NCBI RefSeq assembly: GCF_000559085.1
Contig: NZ_JALN02000001.1
Coordinates: forward strand, 3,100,001-3,164,000
DNA: 64,000 nt
Source: Mycolicibacterium aromaticivorans JS19b1 = JCM 16368
GTDB taxonomy: Bacteria; Actinomycetota; Actinomycetes; Mycobacteriales; Mycobacteriaceae
Reading direction: 5' to 3'
The position numbers were made by a program, and so were the translations under genes. Below are positions 860 through 19,062 of this stretch, in pieces. Below the pieces are notes generated by a model. That model was given only the letters and a program-made list of their open reading frames with translations, was not told where the DNA came from and made no database searches. Each line of letters starts with the position of its first letter. Within the stretch, counting starts at the first letter, position 1.

Positions 860-2068
860 TCAGGGCCGGCCCTGGCGTCCCGAATATCCTTCCCAGGGAC
901 TGTAATCCGCGACCAGCTCCTCCTGCGCCGGACGCTGATCCTCCGGAATGTGTTCGAGGTTGATCCGGATGCGGTACCAGATGGAGCTCGGCCCCCGCAT
1001 TCCGTCTACCAGGATGTCGGTTGGCTGCAGCGCCGTGGCGGCCTCCGGGTGACGGGCCCGCCAGACATCCAACGCCGCCATCGCCTCATCGCGGGTTTTG
1101 GTGCGGGCCACCTCGATCAGCGGCTTGCTGCCTTTCGGCGGCTTCTCAGCGGGGCCGAGCTCCTCGGCCAGCGCCAGCAGCGGGTCCAGCGAGCCGACCG
1201 CGTCGTCCATCGACTCCCAGGGATCGCCGCGCTCGGCGACGCGGGCGGGGACGGTCAGGATCGTGAACTCCTCGGCGCGGCAGCCGGGCACCTCATCCCA
1301 CGTCAACGGCGTCGACACCCGCGCGTCGGCGGTGGCCCGCACCGAATAGGCCGAGGCGACGGTGCGGTCCTTGGCGTTCTGATTGAAATCGACGAAAACC
1401 CGTTGTCCGCGTTCTTCCTTCCACCAGAGGCTGCTGGCCAGGTCCGGTGCGCGGCGTTGCACCTCGCGGGCAACGGTCTCGGCGGCCAGCCGAACCTGCT
1501 TGAACGGCCAGTGCGGTGCGATCCGGGCGTAAATGTGGAATCCGCGCGACCCCGACGTCTTGGGCCACGCCGTCAGCCCGTGGTCCTCGAGCACCTCGCG
1601 CGCCACCTGGGCCACATCCAAGATCTGCGGCCAGTCGACACCCGGCATCGGATCGAGGTCGATACGCAGCTCGTCGGGATGGTCGAGGTCACCGGAGCGG
1701 ACCGGGTGCGGATTGAGATCGACGCAGCCGAGGTTGATCGCCCACGCCAGCCCTGCGGGTTCGTGGAGCACCGCCTCCTTGGCCGACGTGCCCCGGGCGT
1801 AGCGCAGTTCGGCCACCTCGATCCAGTCCGGGCGCTTCTCCGGGGCACGCTTCTGGAAGATCGCTTCCTCGGCGATGCCTTTGACGAACCGCTTGAGGAT
1901 CATCGGCCGGTCGGCGACACCGCGCAGCGCCCCGTCGGCCACGGCAAGGTAGTAGCTGACGAGGTCGGCCTTGGTGACCGCAGCCCGTTCACCGACCGCG
2001 GGGAAGACCACTTTGTCGGGATGACTGATGGTGACCTGGCGGCCCCCGATCTTCATGGAGTCGGCCAT
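860..2068 (-). CDS. Stand-alone LigD-type primase-polymerase (PolDom), Rv0269c/PolD2-like
   Basis: This 402-residue protein is a single polymerase domain of the archaeo-eukaryotic primase superfamily, like the POL part of LigD but without ligase or nuclease domains. The metal-binding DLD lies at residues 137-139 (RIDLDP), the substrate-binding GSRGFHIY at 173-180 and the third metal aspartate in VDFNQN at 226-231. Mycobacterial stand-alone PolDom proteins add ribo- or deoxynucleotides at primed gaps during DNA repair. Its place beside fadD2 matches the neighbourhood of Rv0269c in M. tuberculosis. It is divergent from fadD2 across a 66-base gap. The assignment to the PolD2 rather than the Prim-PolC subgroup rests on gene order, so it is less certain than the fold. 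Confidence 0.88.
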   Translation of the reverse strand: MADSMKIGGRQVTISHPDKVVFPAVGERAAVTKADLVSYYLAVADGALRGVADRPMILKRFVKGIAEEAIFQKRAPEKRPDWIEVAELRYARGTSAKEAVLHEPAGLAWAINLGCVDLNPHPVRSGDLDHPDELRIDLDPMPGVDWPQILDVAQVAREVLEDHGLTAWPKTSGSRGFHIYARIAPHWPFKQVRLAAETVAREVQRRAPDLASSLWWKEERGQRVFVDFNQNAKDRTVASAYSVRATADARVSTPLTWDEVPGCRAEEFTILTVPARVAERGDPWESMDDAVGSLDPLLALAEELGPAEKPPKGSKPLIEVARTKTRDEAMAALDVWRARHPEAATALQPTDILVDGMRGPSSIWYRIRINLEHIPEDQRPAQEELVADYSPWEGYSGRQGRP

Positions 2069-2134
2069 GAAGCCATGGTAATTAGGCCGCTCGTTCGGTC
2101 TTGGCTGCGACGTGCGTCACCTAGGGTTGCAGAC

Positions 2135-3814
2135 ATGCCCAGTCTTTTCGATCTCCCCGCGCAAGCACTGGCCAAGGCTCAGCGATTGGCCGACCGTGGC
2201 TCGGCTGAGCTGCACTACCTGGCCAAGATGATCGAGTCGGGCGCATTCCGTCTCGAGCCGCCCCAAAATCTCATCGGGATGGTTGCCGACATCCGCCGCT
2301 GGGGCGAGATCGGGATGGTTCCGGCGCTCAACGCCCGCCGCACACCCAACAAGGCGGCGATCGTCGACGACGAGGGTTCGATGACCTTCAAAGAACTCGA
2401 CGACGCCGCCAACGCTGTCGCCAATGCGTTGCTGGCCAAGGGTGTCACCGGCGGCGACGGGGTGGCCATCCTGGCCCGGAACCACCGCTGGTTCGTGATC
2501 GCGAACTACGGCGCGGCACGGGTCGGCGCCCGGACGATCATGCTCAACACGGAGTTCTCCGGGCCGCAGATCCGGGACGTGTCCGAGCGTGAGGGCGCCA
2601 AGCTGATCATCTACGACGATGAGTACTCCGACGCCGTCAAGCTCGCCGAGCCCCCGCTGGGCAAGCTGCGGGCACTGGGGACCAACCCTGATGCCGACGG
2701 TCCATCGGGTAGCACCGACGAAACCCTGGCCGAGGTCATCGAGCGGAGCAGCACCGCACCCGCGCCGAAGGCCACCAAGCGGTCGTCGATCATCATCCTC
2801 ACCAGCGGCACCACCGGAACCCCGAAGGGAGCCACCAGGAACACCCCGCCGACCCTGGCGCCGATCGGCGGCATTCTGTCCGCCGTGCCGTTCCGTGCCG
2901 GCGAGGTCACGGCGCTGCCGTCGCCGATGTTCCACGCCCTCGGATACCTGCATGCGACGATCGCGCTGACCCTGGGGTCGACGCTGGTGCTGCATCGAAA
3001 GTTCAAGCCGGCCAACGTGTTGGAGGACGTGGCCAAGCACAAGGTGACCGCGATCGTGGTGGTCCCGGTGATGCTCGCGCGGATGCTCGACGCGCTGGAG
3101 GAGATGGAGACCAAGCCGGATCTGTCGTCGCTGCGGATCGTGTTCGTCTCCGGCTCTCAGCTTGGTGCGGAACTGGCCACCCGCGCACTGAAAGACATCG
3201 GCCCGGTCATCTACAACATGTACGGCTCAACTGAAGTCGCGTTCGCGACCATCGCAGGACCCAAGGATCTGCAGATGAATCCGGCCACCGTCGGACCTGT
3301 CGTCACTGGTGTCACCGTGAAGATCCTCGACGACAACGGCAACGAGCTACCGCAGGGCGAGGTCGGGCGGATCTTCGTCGGCAACAGCTTCCCGTTCGAG
3401 GGCTACACCGGTGGCGGTCACAAGCAGATCATCGACGGGTTGATGTCATCCGGTGACGTCGGCTATTTCGACCACAACGGCCTGCTGTTCGTCAGCGGCC
3501 GCGACGACGAGATGATCGTCTCCGGCGGTGAGAATGTCTTCCCGGCCGAGGTTGAAGACCTCATCAGCGGCCACCCCGACATCGTCGAGGCGACCGCGCT
3601 CGGCGTCGACGATCCCGACTGGGGTGCCCGGCTTCGCGCATTCGTGGTGCTGCGCGAAGAAGCCGAACTCACCGAGGACGCGATCAAGAACTACGTGCGC
3701 GAACACCTTGCGCGCTACAAGGTTCCGCGCGAGGTGGTGTTCCTCTCCGAGCTGCCGCGAAACCCGACCGGCAAGATCCTCAAGCGGGAATTGCGCGACA
3801 TCGAGGTGCAGTAG
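2135..3814 (+). CDS. fadD2: Fatty-acid-CoA ligase FadD2 (AMP-forming acyl-CoA synthetase)
   Basis: The enzyme activates fatty acids to acyl-CoA through an acyl-adenylate. The 559-residue product has the ANL-superfamily blocks in order: the phosphate loop LTSGTTGTPKG, the MYGSTE adenine/acyl block, SGDVGYFD, the hinge region GRDDEMIVSGGENV, and PTGKILKREL with the catalytic lysine near the C-terminus. The frame stays open far upstream, antisense to the polymerase gene. The ATG chosen (MPSLFDLPAQ) gives the family length, matches M. tuberculosis FadD2 (about 560 residues) and follows the divergent intergenic gap. Its position between the PolDom gene and fadE6 matches Rv0269c-Rv0271c, which supports a role in fatty-acid catabolism. 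The exact chain-length preference cannot be read from the sequence. Confidence 0.9.
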   Translation: MPSLFDLPAQALAKAQRLADRGSAELHYLAKMIESGAFRLEPPQNLIGMVADIRRWGEIGMVPALNARRTPNKAAIVDDEGSMTFKELDDAANAVANALLAKGVTGGDGVAILARNHRWFVIANYGAARVGARTIMLNTEFSGPQIRDVSEREGAKLIIYDDEYSDAVKLAEPPLGKLRALGTNPDADGPSGSTDETLAEVIERSSTAPAPKATKRSSIIILTSGTTGTPKGATRNTPPTLAPIGGILSAVPFRAGEVTALPSPMFHALGYLHATIALTLGSTLVLHRKFKPANVLEDVAKHKVTAIVVVPVMLARMLDALEEMETKPDLSSLRIVFVSGSQLGAELATRALKDIGPVIYNMYGSTEVAFATIAGPKDLQMNPATVGPVVTGVTVKILDDNGNELPQGEVGRIFVGNSFPFEGYTGGGHKQIIDGLMSSGDVGYFDHNGLLFVSGRDDEMIVSGGENVFPAEVEDLISGHPDIVEATALGVDDPDWGARLRAFVVLREEAELTEDAIKNYVREHLARYKVPREVVFLSELPRNPTGKILKRELRDIEVQ

Positions 3815-5809: not shown

Positions 5810-8008
5810 CTACGGATCGCGCGGCAGCCCCAGCAGGCGCTCGGCGATGATGTTGAGCTGCACCTCGGAGGTGCCACCGTAGATCGTCGTCGACCGGCTG
5901 CCGAGCAGGTACTCCGCCCATTTACCTTGCAGCTCTGCAGAATCGCCGATGGCGCCGTCGACGCCGAACGAAGACACCGCAAACTCGGCGTACCCCTGCC
6001 CGGTGCGCATCGACAGCAGCTTCGAGATAGCAGCCGACGGCATCGCATCGCCTCCGGCCAGGGTCAGCAGCGTCGAGCGCAGATTCAGCAGCTTGGCCGC
6101 GTGCCCCTCGGCGATCAGTTCGCCGGCCCGGTGATGGCCGATCTGGTCGAAGTGACCGTCGCTGACAAATTGCACGAACCCGTCGAGGTTGGCCAGGAAT
6201 CCCGGCTCGCTGCTTCCGATCGAAACCCGTTCGGCAGTCAGGGTATTGCGGCTGACCTCCCATCCGCGGTCCACATCGCCAAGCACCAGCTCGTCGGGGA
6301 CGAACACGTCGTCGATGAACACCGTGTTGAACATGGCGTGACCGGTGAGCTCACGCAGCGGTTTGACCTCGACGCCTTCGGCCTTCATGTCCAGCAAGAA
6401 GTAGGTGATGCCAGCATGTTTCGGCGCGCTCGGGTTGGTCCGCGCCAGAAGGGCGCCCCACTGGGCGTACTGGGCGCCGGTGGTCCAGATTTTTTGCCCG
6501 GTGATCCGCCAGCCGCCGTCGACCTTGGTGGCCTTGGTGGTCAGGCTGGCCAGGTCGGAGCCGGCGCCGGGCTCGGAAAACAGCTGGCACCAGATCATCT
6601 CGCCGCGGAACGTCGGCGGTAGGAAGCGCTGCTTCTGCTCCTCGTTGCCGAACGCCACGATGGACGGGATCAGCCAGGCCGCGATCCCCATCTGCGGTCG
6701 CTTGACCTGCCCGGCGGTGAACTCCTGAGCGATGATGATCTGCTCGATCGGCTTGGCGTCCCGGCCCCACGGCTTCGGTAGGTGCGGCTGCACCCAGCCG
6801 CCCTCGGCGATCGCGGTCTTGCGCTCCTCCCGCGGAATCGCTTTCAGGGCAGCCACTTCCGCGCGGATCTCGTCGCGCAGCTTCTCGGTCTCGGGGTCGA
6901 GATCGATGTTGATGGCCCGCATACCCATGCTGGTCGCGGTGTCGAACACCTTCTGCTGGTATTCGCTCGCGCGTCCGAATGCGGCGACCATACCCAGCGT
7001 GCGGCGGTAGTAGACGTTGGTGTCGTGCTCCCAGGTGAAGCCGATGCCACCGTGCACCTGGATGCAGTCCTGGGCGGTGTGCTGGGCGGCGGCAGGCGCC
7101 AGACTGGCTGCCACCGCGGTGGCGAACTCGTACGCCGTTTGCTCGTTCTCCCAACCCTTTTCGGCGGCTTCGTCCAATGCGCGCGCGGCGTCCCATACCG
7201 CTGCGGTAGCACGCTCGGTGGTGGCGATCATCTCGGCGCACTTGTGCTTGATGGCCTGGAACTGGCCGATCGGACGGCCGAACTGCTCGCGGATCTTCGC
7301 GTACGCCGCTGCCGTGTCGGTGGCCCAGCGGGCGATGCCAACTGCCTCAGCCGACAGCAGAGTGGTGAGGATCGCACGGCCGGCCGCCTGTGAAAGATTG
7401 GACAGCACCCGGTCGGCACTGACTTCGGCGGCATTGGCCCGGACATGCGCCACCGGACGTAACAGGTCCACCGATTTGACCGGCTCGATCTCGAGTTGGT
7501 CGGCATCGAGGATCACCCATTCCACGCCGCTCTCGATCGCCACCGGTAGCACCAGAACGGCGGCCTGCGCGGCAGCGGGCACCGAGCGGGCCTCCCCGCG
7601 GATCACCAGTGAGTCGTCCTGGCGGGTCGCGGTCAGACCCGACTCCAGCGCGCAGGTGGCGATCAACTCGCCGGAGGCCAGCTTGCCCAGCAGCCTGGCG
7701 TCGGGATCGTGGGCAGAGATGAGCGCACTGGCTATCGCGGAGGTCACGAACGGCCCAGGCGCGGCGCCGTAACCGAACTCGGCGATCACGATCGCAAGCT
7801 CCAACAGGCCGAACCCCTGGCCGTCGACGGACTCCGCCAGGTGCAGGCCGTGCAAGCCCTGCTCGGCCGCTGCTTTCCAGTACGGCGGCGGGTTGGGGAT
7901 CGGCGTCTCCAGGGCCTCGTGCAGGACTTCGGACGGCGCGACGCGTGCGACAAGAGACTTCACCGAATCGGCGAGGTCGTTGTGCTCCTGGGTGATGGCG
8001 ATGGGCAT
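5810..8008 (-). CDS. fadE6: Acyl-CoA dehydrogenase FadE6 (two fused ACAD domains)
   Basis: This 732-residue protein is a head-to-tail fusion of two acyl-CoA dehydrogenase domains (about residues 1-380 and 390-732), the same length as M. tuberculosis FadE6 (731). The first domain ends with the FAD/adenine-binding helices IREQFGRPIGQFQAIKHK and EHDTNVYYRR. The second has the substrate/FAD loop FSEPGAGSDLASL, the WTTGAQ segment and the C-terminal YGGTSEVQLNIIAERLLG. The enzyme would carry out the first, FAD-dependent step of beta-oxidation (or of a related acyl-CoA), passing electrons to ETF and then to EtfD, whose gene is also in this window. The start at MPIAITQEHN is the first ATG. No evidence in the sequence fixes the substrate. 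Confidence 0.92.
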   Translation of the reverse strand: MPIAITQEHNDLADSVKSLVARVAPSEVLHEALETPIPNPPPYWKAAAEQGLHGLHLAESVDGQGFGLLELAIVIAEFGYGAAPGPFVTSAIASALISAHDPDARLLGKLASGELIATCALESGLTATRQDDSLVIRGEARSVPAAAQAAVLVLPVAIESGVEWVILDADQLEIEPVKSVDLLRPVAHVRANAAEVSADRVLSNLSQAAGRAILTTLLSAEAVGIARWATDTAAAYAKIREQFGRPIGQFQAIKHKCAEMIATTERATAAVWDAARALDEAAEKGWENEQTAYEFATAVAASLAPAAAQHTAQDCIQVHGGIGFTWEHDTNVYYRRTLGMVAAFGRASEYQQKVFDTATSMGMRAINIDLDPETEKLRDEIRAEVAALKAIPREERKTAIAEGGWVQPHLPKPWGRDAKPIEQIIIAQEFTAGQVKRPQMGIAAWLIPSIVAFGNEEQKQRFLPPTFRGEMIWCQLFSEPGAGSDLASLTTKATKVDGGWRITGQKIWTTGAQYAQWGALLARTNPSAPKHAGITYFLLDMKAEGVEVKPLRELTGHAMFNTVFIDDVFVPDELVLGDVDRGWEVSRNTLTAERVSIGSSEPGFLANLDGFVQFVSDGHFDQIGHHRAGELIAEGHAAKLLNLRSTLLTLAGGDAMPSAAISKLLSMRTGQGYAEFAVSSFGVDGAIGDSAELQGKWAEYLLGSRSTTIYGGTSEVQLNIIAERLLGLPRDP

Positions 8009-11458: not shown

Positions 11459-11580
11459 GTCGGTGGCCTCCTTCGGGTGTGGATCGCTGAGGAGACGATA
11501 TTCGTCAGCGTCGATGTGCATGCCTGAATCCGGTGTTAGGTTCGGTTGGGAGAGTCGACCAGGATCTGTGGGGGCACGCC

Positions 11581-12159
11581 GTGATCAAGCCGCACAACAC
11601 CAACCCAGAATTCGAGCTCGGGGGAATCAACCACGTCGCGCTGGTGTGCTCGGACATGGAGCGCACTGTCGATTTCTACTCGAATGTGCTGGGTATGCCG
11701 CTGGTCAAGTCGCTGAATCTGCCTGACGGACTGGGGCAGCACTTCTTTTTCGACGCGGGCAATGGCGATTGCGTGGCGTTCTTCTGGTTCGCCGAGGCGC
11801 CGGACGGCACGATGGGCAGCACCACCCCTGCAGCGCTGCCCGGTCTGGGTTCGATCGTCAGCGCGGTGGGCTCGATGAATCACTTGGCGTTTCACGTGCC
11901 CGAGGAGAAGTTCGACGAGTACCGCCAGCGGCTCAAGGACAAGGGTGTGCGGGTTGGGCCCGTGCTCAACCACGACGACAGTCCCCAGGGAGCCACTCGC
12001 GAACTCCACCCCGGGGTGTACGTACGGTCCTTCTACTTCAGCGATCCGGATGGCATCGTGCTGGAATTCGCTTGCTGGACACGGGAATTCACCGATCATG
12101 AAGCCGCAACTCCGCCCAAGACGGCGGCCGACCGCAAGCAGCCGATCGCCGCAGGCTAG
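11581..12159 (+). CDS. VOC-superfamily (glyoxalase/dioxygenase fold) protein, Rv0274-like
   Basis: This 192-residue protein contains paired beta-alpha-beta-beta-beta modules. The first metal histidine is in GGINHVALVCSDMERTVDFY, a second in MNHLAFHVPEE, and the glutamate is in GIVLEFACW. These fit a VOC-fold metalloenzyme acting on a small molecule (extradiol dioxygenase or glyoxalase type). The GTG start is preceded by a G-rich stretch; upstream in-frame codons lack a ribosome site. Length and neighbours agree with Rv0274 (193 residues). It ends on a CTAG whose other strand is the stop of the following TetR gene, so the two convergent genes share their stop-codon tetranucleotide. Specific function unknown. 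Confidence 0.8.
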   Translation: MIKPHNTNPEFELGGINHVALVCSDMERTVDFYSNVLGMPLVKSLNLPDGLGQHFFFDAGNGDCVAFFWFAEAPDGTMGSTTPAALPGLGSIVSAVGSMNHLAFHVPEEKFDEYRQRLKDKGVRVGPVLNHDDSPQGATRELHPGVYVRSFYFSDPDGIVLEFACWTREFTDHEAATPPKTAADRKQPIAAG

Positions 12160-12776
12160 TCGCGGAACAGCCGCGGATCGCCGAGTTCGTCGATGATTGC
12201 GGTGAGCTGATCGGCGAGCTCGGCGGGCGTCAGTGTGATCGCGCCGCCCAGCCAGGCGCTGATGGTCTGGCCGACGCCGCCCACAACGAAGTGCGCGAAC
12301 GCCTTGATCCGGTCGTTGGCGGGACGGTGCAGCAGCGCCTCGACGTGTTGGCCCGACAGCATCGCGAACAGCGCGCCGGACTCCTGTCGTTTGCGGACCA
12401 CCGTGGTGTTGGACAGCTGCGAGCTGAACATCAGCCGACCGACCCGCGGATCGAGTTCGATGGTCCGCACGATGTTGGCCATGGCGGCGCGGTTCTGCGC
12501 ATCGACCGGGGCTGTCGCCACCGCGGCCTGAGTGGTGGCGGCAAGCTCGGCGACCACCCAGTCGAAGACCGCCGCGACGAACTCGTCCTTGTCGGCGAAG
12601 CTCTCGTAGAAGTATCGGGTGGCGACGCCGGCCTCTCGGCAGATGCCCCGAACGGTGAGCTCAGCGGGGTCGACATTGCTGCCCAGCAGCTCCAGTCCGG
12701 CCTCCAGAAGACGGGCCCGTCTCCGGGCCAGCCGATCGGCGGCATCCACGCCGCCGTAGGGCCGTGCCTGCGTCAT
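12156..12776 (-). CDS. TetR-family transcriptional regulator (Rv0275c-like)
   Basis: The 206-residue protein has an N-terminal TetR helix-turn-helix (LTVRGICREAGVATRYFYES, about residues 45-65) and an all-helical ligand-binding domain. The ATG (MTQARPYGG) was chosen over an upstream in-frame ATG because the extension has no protein-like character. It is divergent from the DUF2236 gene (84-base gap), the usual arrangement of a TetR repressor with its target, and convergent with the VOC gene. The likely target is therefore the DUF2236 oxygenase-like gene or itself. The ligand cannot be inferred. Confidence 0.85.
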   Translation of the reverse strand: MTQARPYGGVDAADRLARRRARLLEAGLELLGSNVDPAELTVRGICREAGVATRYFYESFADKDEFVAAVFDWVVAELAATTQAAVATAPVDAQNRAAMANIVRTIELDPRVGRLMFSSQLSNTTVVRKRQESGALFAMLSGQHVEALLHRPANDRIKAFAHFVVGGVGQTISAWLGGAITLTPAELADQLTAIIDELGDPRLFRD

Positions 12777-12860
12777 TAGCCCATCTTGACATTGCTCAGG
12801 CCAGGGCGGCAATATTAGGAAACATTCGTTGTCAGATTCTCATCCGATAGGTGGCCCAGC

Positions 12861-13760
12861 GTGGCGATCCGCGAACCCGTCCTCAGCCACGTCGACCGGG
12901 CGGTGAGTGCGCCGCCGATGCCGTCGGCTCGCCGCCGGAAATGGGGACCGGGTTTCGACGACGGGCTGATGGGTGTTGCGCTGCTCGCCGGCCCCGCGAA
13001 CGTGATCATGGAGTTGGCCCTGCCGGGCGTCGGCTACGGCGTGATGGAAAGCCGGGTCGAGAGCGGCCGAGCCGACCGGCATCCGATCAAACGGGCCAGG
13101 ACGACCTTCACGTATTTGGCCGTGGCCACCCGGGGTACCGACGAGCAGAAGAAGGCGTATCGACGTGCGGTCAACAAGTCGCACGCGCAGGTGTATTCGA
13201 CGCCGGACAGCCCGGTGGAGTACAACGCGTTCGACAAGAACCTGCAGCTCTGGGTGGCTGCGTGCCTTTACAAGGGCGGCGTTGACGTGGCCCGGGTGTT
13301 CATCGGCGAGATGGACGACGAGACCGCCGACCGGCACTACCGGGAGAGCGCGGCATTGGCCACCACGTTGCAGGTGCCCGCCGAGATGTGGCCGGCCGAT
13401 CGAGCCGCGTTCGACCAGTACTGGCAGGAATCACTGCACAAGCTGCACATCGACGACACCATCCGCGAATATCTGTACCCGTTCGCGGTGTCGAGGATCC
13501 GGGGCGTGCGACTGCCGAAGCGCGTGCAGGAACCGCTCGAACAGTTCAACCTGCTGATCACCACGGGCTTCCTGCCGCAGCGCTTCCGCGACGAGATGCA
13601 CCTCGACTGGACACCGGACAAACAGCGCAAGTTCGACCGCTTGATGGCACGCATCCGGTTCGTCAACAACCTGACTCCCCGCGCCATCCGGGAGTTCCCG
13701 TTCAATTTGCTTCTGCGCGACGTGGATTGGCGGATCCGCACTGGTCGACCGCTCGTCTAG
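12861..13760 (+). CDS. DUF2236 / MpaB-type oxygenase-like protein (Rv0276-like)
   Basis: The 299-residue product starts at GTG ([15 protein letters not shown]). It has features of the DUF2236/MpaB family, which includes heme-dependent oxygenases such as latex clearing protein: an N-terminal [20 protein letters not shown] helix, the [16 protein letters not shown] block and a C-terminal helical domain. The family is common and multicopy in mycobacteria, mostly of unknown substrate. It is divergent from the TetR gene, which may repress it, and is followed by the EthD-like gene. Gene order fits Rv0276. No signal peptide is present. Confidence 0.78.
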
Positions 13761-14202: not shown

Positions 14203-15102
14203 GTGCGAAGTGACAACGACACCTGGGACATCACCACCAGCGTCGGTTCGACGGCTTTGTTCGTCGCCGCCGCCCGCGCGCTCGAGGCGCAGAAACCCGA
14301 CCCGCTGGCGGTCGACCCGTTCGCCGAGGTGTTCTGTCGGGCCGTGGGTGGTCCGTGGGCTGCAGTCCTCGACGGGCAGGCGCCCGACCATCCGCTGAAG
14401 ACCCCGGAGTTCGGGCAACACTTCGTTACCTTCCAGGCGGCGCGGACCCGGTACTTCGACGCGTACTTCCGTGCGGCGGCACAGGCGGGCGTGCGTCAGA
14501 TCGTCCTGCTCGCCGCGGGCCTCGATTCTCGCGCCTACCGGCTGGACTGGCCGGCAGGCACGACTGTCTACGAACTCGACCAGCCGCAAGTGCTGGGGTT
14601 CAAGCGCGAGACCATGGCCGCGCACGGCGCCACCGCGAAAGCCGAGCGCAAGGAGATCGCCATCGATTTGCGGGACGACTGGGCGCAAGCTTTGCGCGAC
14701 AGCGGTTTCCGGCCCGGCGAGCCTTCGGCGTGGATCGCCGAAGGCCTGCTCATCTATCTGCCGGCCAGTGCCCAGGAGCAGCTGTTCACCGGGATCGACG
14801 CGCTGGCTGCTGCGGGCAGCCACGCCGCGGTCGAGGAGGGGCGACCGATGGATCGCGCTGCGTTCCGCGAGAAGGTCGACGAAGCGAAGGCAAGCGACGA
14901 CGAGCGGGGCCAGTGGTGGCAGCTTGTGTACAACGAGCAGCACGCACCTGCCGCGCAGTGGTTCGCCGAGCGCGGATGGACCGCGCAGGACACCACATTG
15001 ATCGACTACCTGAAGACCGTTGGCCGTTCGGTCGAGTCGGCGGACGCCGAAGCGGCCAACATGCTGTCCAGCATCACGCTGGTGAGCGCGATCAAACGCT
15101 AG
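14203..15102 (+). CDS. SAM-dependent methyltransferase, TIGR00027/LCMT family (Rv0281-like)
   Basis: The 299-residue protein begins at GTG ([18 protein letters not shown]), the standard N-terminus of the mycobacterial TIGR00027 family. The SAM-binding site is [15 protein letters not shown] followed by [10 protein letters not shown], and [15 protein letters not shown] lies downstream. These are O-methyltransferase-like enzymes related to leucine carboxyl methyltransferases; mycobacteria have about ten paralogues with mostly unknown substrates. The open frame extends upstream over the EthD-like gene in another frame, but only this start gives the family length. Its stop is three bases from the stop of the convergent hydrolase. 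In M. tuberculosis the Rv0281 position is immediately followed by ESX-3. Confidence 0.87.
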
Positions 15103-15105
15103 GCG

Positions 15106-16299
15106 CTAGTCCCACATCACCGGCCGGAGAAACCGATTGATGCGGCGCAGATACTCGGGCTGGCTGACATGCAGGATGTGGTTGCCCGGGAACCAGTGCA
15201 GCGCACAACGATCCCAGTGCTCCCAGAGCGCCTGGGCCTGCTCGGGCGGCGCAAGCCGATCGCCGAGGCCGGTGATGATCAGTCGCCGATCCCGCGGCAC
15301 CAACGGCTCGTAGTTCAGCGCGCAGTGGTAGGCCGAGGCGGCCGCCGACTCGTCACGGCCGATGGTGCCGAACTTGCGGCCCATCTCGATCAGTTTGTTG
15401 GCCGGCCACCACTCGTCGAACGTCGACTCCGGAGTGACCACCGGAACGTTGGGGATCACCGCCTCCAACCGGTCATCCGCCGAGGCGACCAGCGCTGAGG
15501 TGTAGCCGCCCAACGACATGCCGGTGAGCGCGATGCGGTCGACTCCAGTGTCGCGTAACCAGTTCACGACCGACCGGAAGTCGTGGACCGCCTGGCCCAT
15601 GGTCTCGGCGAATCCGGCCATGCCTTGAGAGAAGAAGCCGTATCCGCTGAAGGGCGAGCCTCTTTCTGCGCGACGGCCGTGAAACGGCAGTGTGTAGAGC
15701 AGTACGTCGTATCCGGTCTTGTAGAACCACGGCAGCGAGAAGAACAGCCCGTTGAACAGATAGGGCGAACCCATGAAACCGTGGATGACGCACAACGTCG
15801 GCCGCGGCCCATCGTCGTGGCGCCAATGCTGTGCCCACACAACGTTGTTGCGCTCCAGGCGCGTCCACTGCTTACGCATGTCCGGATTGACGGGTACGAA
15901 GCTGCTCTCGAACCGGAGATTCTCCACGTTGCCGTGCGCGAGGTACTGCGCGACGGGGTTGGCCGGGCGGGTCGTCACGGCGGGCACGTCGGTGGGTGCG
16001 GGAAAGGATGCCGTCGGGTCGCGGCGCGCGGCGAGTTCGGCGTAGAACTCCAGATTGCTGCGCTCGCGGTGCAGGTCCGACCGGCGCACGATGCTCTTGG
16101 CGACGGTTGGCAGCATGGACGCCCCGACCAGTGACGCGATCGCGGTGCGCAGGCCGATATCGGCCACCGCCGAGGCGTCGACGGTGAGCCGCTGAAGCGC
16201 GGTCAGATCGGAGCGGTCGGGCAGCCCCTCGTATCCGGCGTCGGCACCCGGCACATCGGGCACCGGCACCGGAATGGGCAGGTCGACGTTCGACGTCAT
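15106..16299 (-). CDS. Alpha/beta hydrolase (Rv0293c-like)
   Basis: The 397-residue protein starts at the ATG of MTSNVDLPIP, preceded by a GAAAGG site; 25 further codons upstream are open but not protein-like. The oxyanion region is VIHGFMGSPYLF, the nucleophile elbow is TGMSLGGYTSAL, and FPGNHILHVSQ supplies the probable catalytic histidine. GLGDRLAPPEQA may provide the acid. No signal peptide. The gene follows the GT39-like gene by 55 bases on the same strand. Length and neighbours match Rv0293c, which in M. tuberculosis lies at the far side of ESX-3. Substrate unknown. Confidence 0.8.
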   Translation of the reverse strand: MTSNVDLPIPVPVPDVPGADAGYEGLPDRSDLTALQRLTVDASAVADIGLRTAIASLVGASMLPTVAKSIVRRSDLHRERSNLEFYAELAARRDPTASFPAPTDVPAVTTRPANPVAQYLAHGNVENLRFESSFVPVNPDMRKQWTRLERNNVVWAQHWRHDDGPRPTLCVIHGFMGSPYLFNGLFFSLPWFYKTGYDVLLYTLPFHGRRAERGSPFSGYGFFSQGMAGFAETMGQAVHDFRSVVNWLRDTGVDRIALTGMSLGGYTSALVASADDRLEAVIPNVPVVTPESTFDEWWPANKLIEMGRKFGTIGRDESAAASAYHCALNYEPLVPRDRRLIITGLGDRLAPPEQAQALWEHWDRCALHWFPGNHILHVSQPEYLRRINRFLRPVMWD

Positions 16300-18285: not shown

Positions 18286-19062
18286 ATGTGGAACCCGCAG
18301 ACTTACCTGACGTTCGCCGACCAGCGCGGTAGGCCGTTCTTCGACCTGCTGGGGCGGGTAGGCGCCGAGTCACCGCGACGGGTAGCCGACCTGGGCTGCG
18401 GCCCGGGTAATCTCACCCAACACCTGGCTCAGCGCTGGCCGGAGGCGGTGCTGGAGGCCGTGGACAGCTCTGCGGAGATGGTCACCGCCGCACGGGAGCG
18501 CGGAATCGACGCCAAGCTGGCCGATATCACCGCGTGGACACCGCACCCGGACACCGACGTCGTATTCAGTAACGCGGCGCTGCAATGGATTCCGGGGCAT
18601 CCCGAACTGATGGTGCGCTGGGCCGGTCAGCTGGATGCCGGTGCCTGGATCGCAGTCCAGGTGCCAGGCAACTTCGACGCGCCGTCCCATGTCTCGGTGC
18701 GCCGGCTGGCAGACCAGGAGCATTGGTCAAACATCCTGGGTGACTTTGCTTTCCGCACCGCCAACGTCGTCGAGACGCCGATCCGGTATGCCGAGATCCT
18801 CACCGAGGCGGGCTGCCACGTCGACGTCTGGGAGACCACCTATATCCATGAGCTCGAGGGAGAGAACGCCGTGCTCAACTGGATCACCGGCACGGCGCTC
18901 ACCGCCGTGCGTGATCGACTCGACGACGACCAGTGGCAGCAGTTTCGGACCGAATTGGTCCCAATGCTCGACCAGGCCTACCCCTCCCGGCCCGACGGGC
19001 GCACGTACTTCCCGTTCCGCCGGATCTTCGTCGTCGCTCAGGTGGGCAGTCCGTCGCGGTGA
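18286..19062 (+). CDS. tam: Trans-aconitate 2-methyltransferase
   Basis: The 258-residue protein begins [14 protein letters not shown], the typical N-terminus of Tam. The SAM-binding site [16 protein letters not shown] is at about residues 33-48, [10 protein letters not shown] follows, and [10 protein letters not shown] is the conserved post-motif II segment. The enzyme methylates trans-aconitate, an inhibitor of the citric acid cycle formed spontaneously from cis-aconitate. Position and length match Rv0294. The only ATG fits the family start exactly, and the gene is divergent from the GT39-like gene. Confidence 0.9.

Follow-up and report, generated by a model that had tools for sequence, protein, structure and literature searches.

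The window analysed here is a stretch of 64,000 nt from Mycolicibacterium aromaticivorans JS19b1 (genome G000, contig C1, positions 3100001–3164000). It contains the canonical site of the ESX-3 secretion locus, which in this genome is closed: the two flanking genes converge with three bases between their stop codons. ESX-3 itself is found on the same contig, ending about 650 bases before base 1 of the window. It is complete and directly follows the genes for a mycobactin-type siderophore (mbt), with which it forms one block. G and L numbers designate other genomes of the genus and the stretches read from them.

The ESX-3 and mycobactin genes

The ESX-3 locus occupies C1:3085062–3099346 and all its genes lie on the plus strand. 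Gene starts are the mechanical starts of open reading frames and are approximate. In order, the features are:

C1:3085062–3086900, plus strand: eccA3 (EccA, 801 bits)
After eccA3, plus strand: eccB3 (EccB, 556 bits)
C1:3088318–3092418, plus strand: EccC gene, eccC3 (EccCb above the cut-off)
C1:3092415–3092726, plus strand: PE gene (family match)
Between the PE and EsxG genes, plus strand: PPE gene (family match)
C1:3094275–3094568, plus strand: EsxG (88–90% identical to the copies of G012, G041 and G009)
After EsxG, plus strand: EsxH (WXG100 family match in the locus)
C1:3094859–3095698, plus strand: EspG (EspG family match)
Between EspG and eccE3, plus strand: EccD, then the mycosin (both above the cut-offs)
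C1:3098468–3099346, plus strand: eccE3 (EccE, 161 bits)

EccA, EccB, EccC (as EccCb), EccD, EccE and the mycosin are thus all found in one locus, with scores above the cut-offs; the EccCa half is below its cut-off and lies only partly inside the scanned stretch. EsxG has no Pfam or NCBIfam match. Among solved relatives EspG is nearest to EspG3 (2.9e-96, against 5e-24 for EspG1 and 2e-8 for EspG5) and EccB is nearest to EccB3 (1e-199, against 8e-87 for EccB5), so that the locus is an ESX-3. Both the EsxG-EsxH and the PE-PPE genes are present within it. The first-pass annotation had proposed a search of the whole genome for EccC3, MycP3 and EspG3 homologues; EccC, the mycosin and EspG3 map just left of the window. 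Further EccC/FtsK-type genes are found at G000:C2:269181–271076 and G000:C3:142854–145205, in contigs of 444 kb and 241 kb which may be plasmids.

The siderophore genes precede eccA3:

C1:about 3064104–3084979, left of the window: mbt block (family matches and comparison with G012)

Their order towards eccA3 is mbtK, a gene X, mbtI, mbtA (minus strand), mbtB, mbtE, mbtF, mbtG and mbtH. We have assumed these gene names; the families come from the profile matches, which include GNAT (mbtK), salicylate synthase (mbtI, 552 bits), adenylation, non-ribosomal peptide synthetase (NRPS), lysine monooxygenase-type and MbtH. Gene X has no Pfam match. MbtA, MbtB, MbtE, MbtF and MbtG show 56–71% identity to their G012 counterparts, MbtE being placed by tblastn only and not by the family scan. 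Salicylate synthase, salicyl-AMP ligase, the NRPS proteins MbtB, MbtE and MbtF, the hydroxylase MbtG and MbtH are all present. In the locus read there is no thioesterase or polyketide synthase (PKS) between mbtB and mbtE, where G012 has them, and the thioesterase MbtT of G012 has no match at 1e-20 in G000 or G053. The siderophore may be a variant, different from classical mycobactin. Between the stop codon of mbtH (C1:3084977–3084979) and the start of eccA3 (3085062) there are 82 bases, with both genes in tandem. Together, mbt and ESX-3 form a block of about 36 kb between an SRPBCC-type gene and a LigD-like gene (860–2068 in the window).

The spacer between mbtH and eccA3 contains a candidate IdeR box at C1:3085007–3085025, with 16 of 19 positions matching the IdeR consensus. 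In all 16 loci of the clade described below the same spacer position has 16–17 matches out of 19. When the 330-base stretch of our genome was shuffled (two sets of 2000), a score of 16 was reached once and a score of 14 three times. Iron boxes before eccA3 are described for M. abscessus, M. smegmatis and M. tuberculosis in PMC9505556. It is likely that mbt and ESX-3 are regulated by iron as a single locus.

The vacated site and its distribution in the genus

At the canonical site the window contains:

14203–15102, plus strand: S-adenosylmethionine (SAM)-dependent methyltransferase, orthologue in the Rv0281 position, left flank of the vacated site (TIGR00027, 273 bits)
15103–15105, no strand: vacated ESX-3 site, the bases between the converging stops (sequence; same abutment in relatives)
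15106–16299, minus strand: alpha/beta hydrolase-type gene, orthologue in the Rv0293c position, right flank of the vacated site (positional conservation)

The methyltransferase ends with TAG at 15100–15102; GCG follows, and then the hydrolase stop at 15106–15108 (CTA on the plus strand). This junction had been read from the sequence in the first-pass annotation, which took its two sides to be Rv0281-like and Rv0293c-like and saw in it a deletion or relocation. The junction is real, deletion or relocation is right for this site, and the two genes are the positional orthologues named. The window gene is the best match, among the ten TIGR00027-type genes of its genome, for 50 out of 50 canonical methyltransferases tested, each taken from the 6 kb that precede eccA3 in a canonical locus, where it is the best match to the window gene. 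The five comparisons printed give 69–70% identity, against 47% at most for the next paralogue. This test rejects a paralogous methyltransferase as left flank. Four TIGR00027-type methyltransferase genes are also found in tandem at C1:3698001–3702600 (L107). For the hydrolase we have used a sample of 148 genomes of the genus, drawn evenly and including our own: it is matched in 128 of them (E ≤ 1e-60), by one gene each in 127 and by three fragments in G039. In 82 of the 94 genomes which can be tested it is found 11.3–15.9 kb from eccB3.

The distribution of the joined block was studied in two ways. In a survey of the best 80 of 321 stretches which encode EccC3 relatives, ten have mbtF-G-H before eccA3: Mycolicibacterium rhodesiae DSM 44223 and JS60, two M. 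sphagni, ENV421, D4_Bin_10, M26, BK086, shizuoka-1 and UC10. A LigD-like gene follows eccE3 in nine of these ten (the exception is L032). Of the 80 stretches, 65 have one or more of the canonical flanks (methyltransferase, DUF2236-type gene, hydrolase, tam); the remaining five have neither such a flank nor the join: the short contigs L059, L072, L088 and L102, and L092, which is the second ESX-3 of M. pinniadriaticum.

In the sample of 148 genomes EccB3 is matched in 122: 94 with the hydrolase on the same contig, 15 with it on another contig and 13 without a hydrolase match. The 94 testable genomes comprise 82 canonical ones, nine relocated ones (25–87 kb between EccB3 and the hydrolase) and three with more than 2 Mb between them, which we take to be kin of M. 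abscessus. In eight of the nine relocated genomes mbtG lies 269–284 bases from eccA3. In 52 genomes MbtG is found on the same contig as EccB3, and in 12 of these the two are at most 60 kb apart: eight of the relocated clade (3.4–3.6 kb) and four M. abscessus-like genomes, G088, G092, G050 and G147 (21–22 kb). G009, the ninth of the relocated genomes, shares their ESX-3 position; it has a PPE gene before eccA3 (207 bits, L161:11900–13339) and no MbtG match. The relocation which joined ESX-3 to the mycobactin genes is, with near certainty, common to a whole clade, that of M. rhodesiae and M. sphagni. In this clade the position between the Rv0281 and Rv0293c orthologues, a positional and not a functional feature of ESX-3, has been vacated.

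Second ESX-3 loci are found in a few genomes. M. pinniadriaticum (G018) has a diverged one in L165, besides the relocated one, with EccA3-C3 identical to those of L092. Others are found far from the hydrolase in L179 (G022) and L221 (G143); the former has its esxG/esxH-like genes next to eccA3 and not after eccC3.

The methyltransferase and the hydrolase also abut in G098, G004, G136 and G009, and in G088 and G050 of the outgroup. Among genomes which lack ESX-3, the abutment is found in G098, G055 and G067. About 470 bases separate the pair in G144. The methyltransferase is only partial in G032, and in G106, G054, G123 and G019 the hydrolase lies beside a DUF2236-type gene, without a methyltransferase match. 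In G053 and G018 a gene of about 3 kb, absent from our own genome, is found between the two flanks; it codes for a protein of 918–974 residues (L159:9205–11961; L158:5311–8235). A Pfam scan of the G053 protein gave no match. It is not an ESX-3 protein, and an ESX-3 remnant is rejected as the identity of this G053 gene.

The other genes of the window which concern us are the following:

1–764 (C1:3099745–3100764), minus strand: CopD-type gene, its right part in the window, between eccE3 and the LigD-like gene (PF05425, 70 bits)
860–2068, minus strand: LigD-type primase-polymerase protein, right flank of the joined block, which we take to be Rv0269c-like (PF21686, 297 bits)
2114–3814, plus strand: acyl-CoA ligase in the stretch between ESX-3 and its old site, presumably FadD2-like by its position (PF00501, 250 bits)
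5810–8008, minus strand: acyl-CoA dehydrogenase, conserved neighbour, presumably FadE6-like by its position (PF00441, 134 bits; same order in G012, G041, G055 and others)
11533–12159, plus strand: glyoxalase/VOC gene, conserved left neighbour (PF00903, 69.6 bits)
12156–12812, minus strand: TetR-type regulator, conserved left neighbour (PF00440, 27.8 bits)
12861–13760, plus strand: PF09995 gene, which we take to be the former DUF2236, conserved left neighbour (223 bits)
18286–19062, plus strand: trans-aconitate 2-methyltransferase (tam), conserved right neighbour (NF010703, 425 bits)

The three left neighbours of the methyltransferase have the same order in the canonical loci L054, L060 and L063; tam is found to the right of the hydrolase in canonical loci. 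In the window a PMT-type gene also lies on that side. Family matches confirm the neighbours which had been named, VOC, TetR, DUF2236 and tam.

On its left the block starts beside a sulfatase and the SRPBCC-type gene (polyketide cyclase family) in G000 and in five of the seven others read that far (G024, G053, G136, G093 and G004). On its right the CopD-type gene is found beside eccE3 in six of the ten named relocated loci, and also in G004 and G009. The acyl-CoA ligase adjoins the LigD-like gene in the canonical G012 too. In G098, assembled in one contig, about 24 bases separate the SRPBCC-type match from the LigD-like one. The usual mbt site, observed in G012 only, lies between a radical-SAM gene, which we take to be hemW-type, and a small gene beside hrcA which is VapB-like by Pfam. 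No mbt genes are found there in G000, G009 or G098: in G000 their place is taken by several genes, among them one for a sulfate permease-carbonic anhydrase, and in G098 the hemW-type gene abuts the VapB-like gene.

Joint absence, trees and the origin of the block

The two systems tend to be absent together. With thresholds of 1e-170 for EccA3 (eight candidates scored per genome), 1e-125 for EccB3 and 1e-70 for MbtG, EccA3 is absent from 24 of the 148 genomes and EccB3 from 26, namely the same 24 plus G078 and G097. MbtG is absent from 30: again these 24, plus G009, G075, G076, G083, G089 and G115. All genomes without EccA3 and EccB3 matches are therefore also without an MbtG match, and 16 of these 24 are at least 90% complete with at most 5% contamination. 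Counted by EccB3, 116 genomes have both, six ESX-3 only, two MbtG only (G078 and G097, which have EccA3 matches) and 24 neither; a Fisher test which ignores the kinship of the genomes gives 6e-20. In a tree of 28 genomes the loss of ESX-3 corresponds to five changes. On starred branches joint loss can be followed in only three independent pairs, or five when all branches are counted: a mean of 2.7 out of three go the same way and none the opposite way, and the paired test gives p 0.25 at best. Each of the 24 genomes probably lacks both systems as a whole. G098 has no EccA3, EccB3 or MbtG match in the searches, and in it all three sites (canonical ESX-3, usual mbt and SRPBCC/LigD) are closed.

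A core tree was obtained from rpoB, rpoC and neighbours (4397 columns), with an M. abscessus-like outgroup. G032, which fills 20% of the core columns, is in the first core tree and in the joint-loss tree; it was dropped from the later core tree and tests. G094 carries a tentative canonical label in the trees, its hydrolase being on another contig. The canonical G084 and then G012 branch off first (96/97 and 97/97, starred support). All nine relocated genomes fall into a single clade (98/97), whose sister is G098 (100/100); its placement relative to the other groups is less certain (83/83). The first core tree gives a similar picture. The backbone of a tree of rpoB only is unresolved. Since the canonical G084 and G012 branch off before the clade, the canonical place is ancestral within the radiation and the relocated state is derived.

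A tree of EccA3, EccB3 and EccC3 also has all relocated copies in one clade (100/100), within a group (100/99) which contains the canonical G012, G041 and G084, M. komossense and the second copy of M. pinniadriaticum. Approximately unbiased (AU) tests with plain LG reject the tree in which G012, G041, G084 and M. komossense are forced with the outgroup (p 2.2e-06) and the tree which places the relocated copies with G065, G090, G099 and allies (p 0.002). The core data oppose the ESX-3 topology weakly (AU p 0.041 with the outgroup; 0.137 without it, plain LG), and without the outgroup they do not reject the clade with G065, G090, G099 and allies (0.422). In a tree of MbtG and MbtH the clade is found beside G105, G117 and G094 (96/95). 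These three would be slow growers: in the ESX-3 tree they all belong to the group of M. gordonae, with which G105 clusters. The gene trees hint at transfer.

The best overall explanation, which we consider very probable, is that ESX-3 has been relocated and joined to the mycobactin genes as an iron-acquisition block. When iron is low, IdeR would release the mbt and ESX-3 promoters; MbtI, MbtA, MbtB, MbtE, MbtF, MbtG and MbtK would make a mycobactin-type siderophore; ESX-3 would export its EsxG-EsxH and PE-PPE substrates, so that the iron-loaded siderophore becomes usable. The block may function as a single iron locus in regulation and uptake. As for its history, both systems would have disappeared from their old sites in an ancestor shared with G098, as seems to have happened in several other lineages; the clade of M. 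rhodesiae and M. sphagni would then have regained the two as one joined block, and G009 would later have lost the mbt half. We give such a loss and regain about an even chance. Rather tentatively, siderophore synthesis and ESX-3 could be one evolutionary unit, lost together and, in this clade, regained together as a portable block of about 36 kb.

Several observations weigh against parts of this reading. A single deletion of an already assembled block in G098 is equally possible. The different neighbours in the ESX-3 and MbtG/MbtH trees do not favour one donor of the joined block, so that no donor can be named, and none is found in the gene trees. The core data separate the clade from G012 and G084 weakly; the conflict with the ESX-3 tree is therefore no proof of transfer, and we have not accepted horizontal gain from it alone. 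In G043 and G018 the sulfatase, the SRPBCC-type gene and mbtK are not seen left of the block. Finally, the best IdeR match in the mbtA-mbtB region is weaker: 14 of 19, reached in one of 2000 shuffles.

The most probable alternative to loss and regain is movement within the genome: two internal rearrangements, without loss or horizontal gain, would have brought mbt and ESX-3 together at the SRPBCC/LigD site, and G098 would then have lost the block by one deletion. We consider it possible, though somewhat doubtful. The number of events required is much the same as for loss and regain. From the old ESX-3 site to the new one the distance is only about 15 kb, with the strand unchanged and the intervening genes in order, and a single relocated clade is obtained in the core tree as well as in the ESX-3 tree. 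However, G098 has all three sites closed and none of the proteins searched for, the mbt block is unlike the one canonical cluster compared (G012) both between mbtB and mbtE and in the position of mbtK, and the ESX-3 tree rejects the relocated copies with G065, G090, G099 and allies.

Retention by the clade of an ancestral state, with mbt and ESX-3 linked and the junction closed, is improbable. It agrees with the 21–22 kb between mbtG and eccB3 in G088, G092, G050 and G147, with the closed junction of G088 and G050, and with the three mycobactin genes described inside the ESX-3 of Segniliparus rotundus in PMC4791881. But the canonical G084 and G012 branch off before the relocated clade, and the relocated ESX-3 does not group with G088 and G050; in G088 the distance from eccA3 is about 11 kb to mbtI and 18 kb to mbtG, and these genes have the opposite orientation, whereas here the two systems are in tandem, 82 bases apart. 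The first-pass annotation had also considered the junction as a possible ancestral state. The M. abscessus-like outgroup genomes G088 and G050 do have it, with ESX-3 more than 2 Mb away, and there it seems to reflect a stage at which ESX-3 had not yet entered the canonical site; within the radiation this reading fails, given the early branching of G084 and G012.

Two further explanations have practically no chance. A mis-assembled join or empty junction could be suspected from the six contigs of G000, but it is refuted by the agreement of independent assemblies: the join is found in the ten survey loci and in eight sampled genomes (our own included; at least two strains are common to both sets), and the closed junction also in the one-contig genomes G098, G136, G009, G088 and G050. 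Outright loss of ESX-3 from the genome, which the closed junction might suggest, is refuted: a complete type-3 locus, first seen as EccC at C1:3089746, lies on the same contig about 15 kb upstream of the junction.

ESX-3 is known to be needed for the use of mycobactin iron, and in this genome it directly follows the genes which make the siderophore. This join, with the joint absence across the genus sample, would be evolutionary evidence which ties the selected role of ESX-3 in these species to mycobactin. It also points to environmental species in which both systems may be removable as one block.

Comparison with known systems

ESX-3 reportedly has a role in mycobactin iron use, as papers which cite Siegrist 2009 have it. 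In the titles and abstract openings of the open-licence PMC literature, none of the matches listed reports an mbt-ESX-3 join; the accessible parts of PMC10667711, PMC6418233 and PMC8190616 do not mention it either. The relocated locus resembles the canonical mycobacterial ESX-3 in its core genes, PE/PPE, EsxG/EsxH, EspG3 and mycosin in one run, and in the IdeR-like box before eccA3. It differs by its place in the chromosome, by being joined to mbtH and by the closure of the old place to three bases. Its mbt half is similar to the mbt-1 cluster found at the hemW-type/hrcA site of G012 (L224 and L223): in both mbtA is divergent from mbtB, which is followed by mbtE, F, G and H. However, here the cluster lies at the SRPBCC/LigD site, lacks both thioesterase and PKS in the mbtB-mbtE interval, has mbtK at its left end and is followed by ESX-3.

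In M. abscessus, according to PMC9505556, ESX-3 is MAB_2224c-2234c, and mbtI, mbtA and mbtE' are found in MAB_2245-2248; this arrangement fits the M. abscessus-like genomes of our sample. There too ESX-3 and mbt genes are near each other, and the junction is closed in the presumed kin G088 and G050. The differences are that the genes lie on opposite strands, about 11–18 kb apart in G088, that no mbtB was identified in the stretch analysed and that the ESX-3 belongs to a separate lineage. PMC4791881 describes M. chubuense as being without ESX-3 and S. rotundus as having three mycobactin genes in its ESX-3. The latter, compared by this description, shares with our clade the presence of mycobactin genes in the ESX-3 locus; it differs in being outside the genus and in having only a few of these genes.

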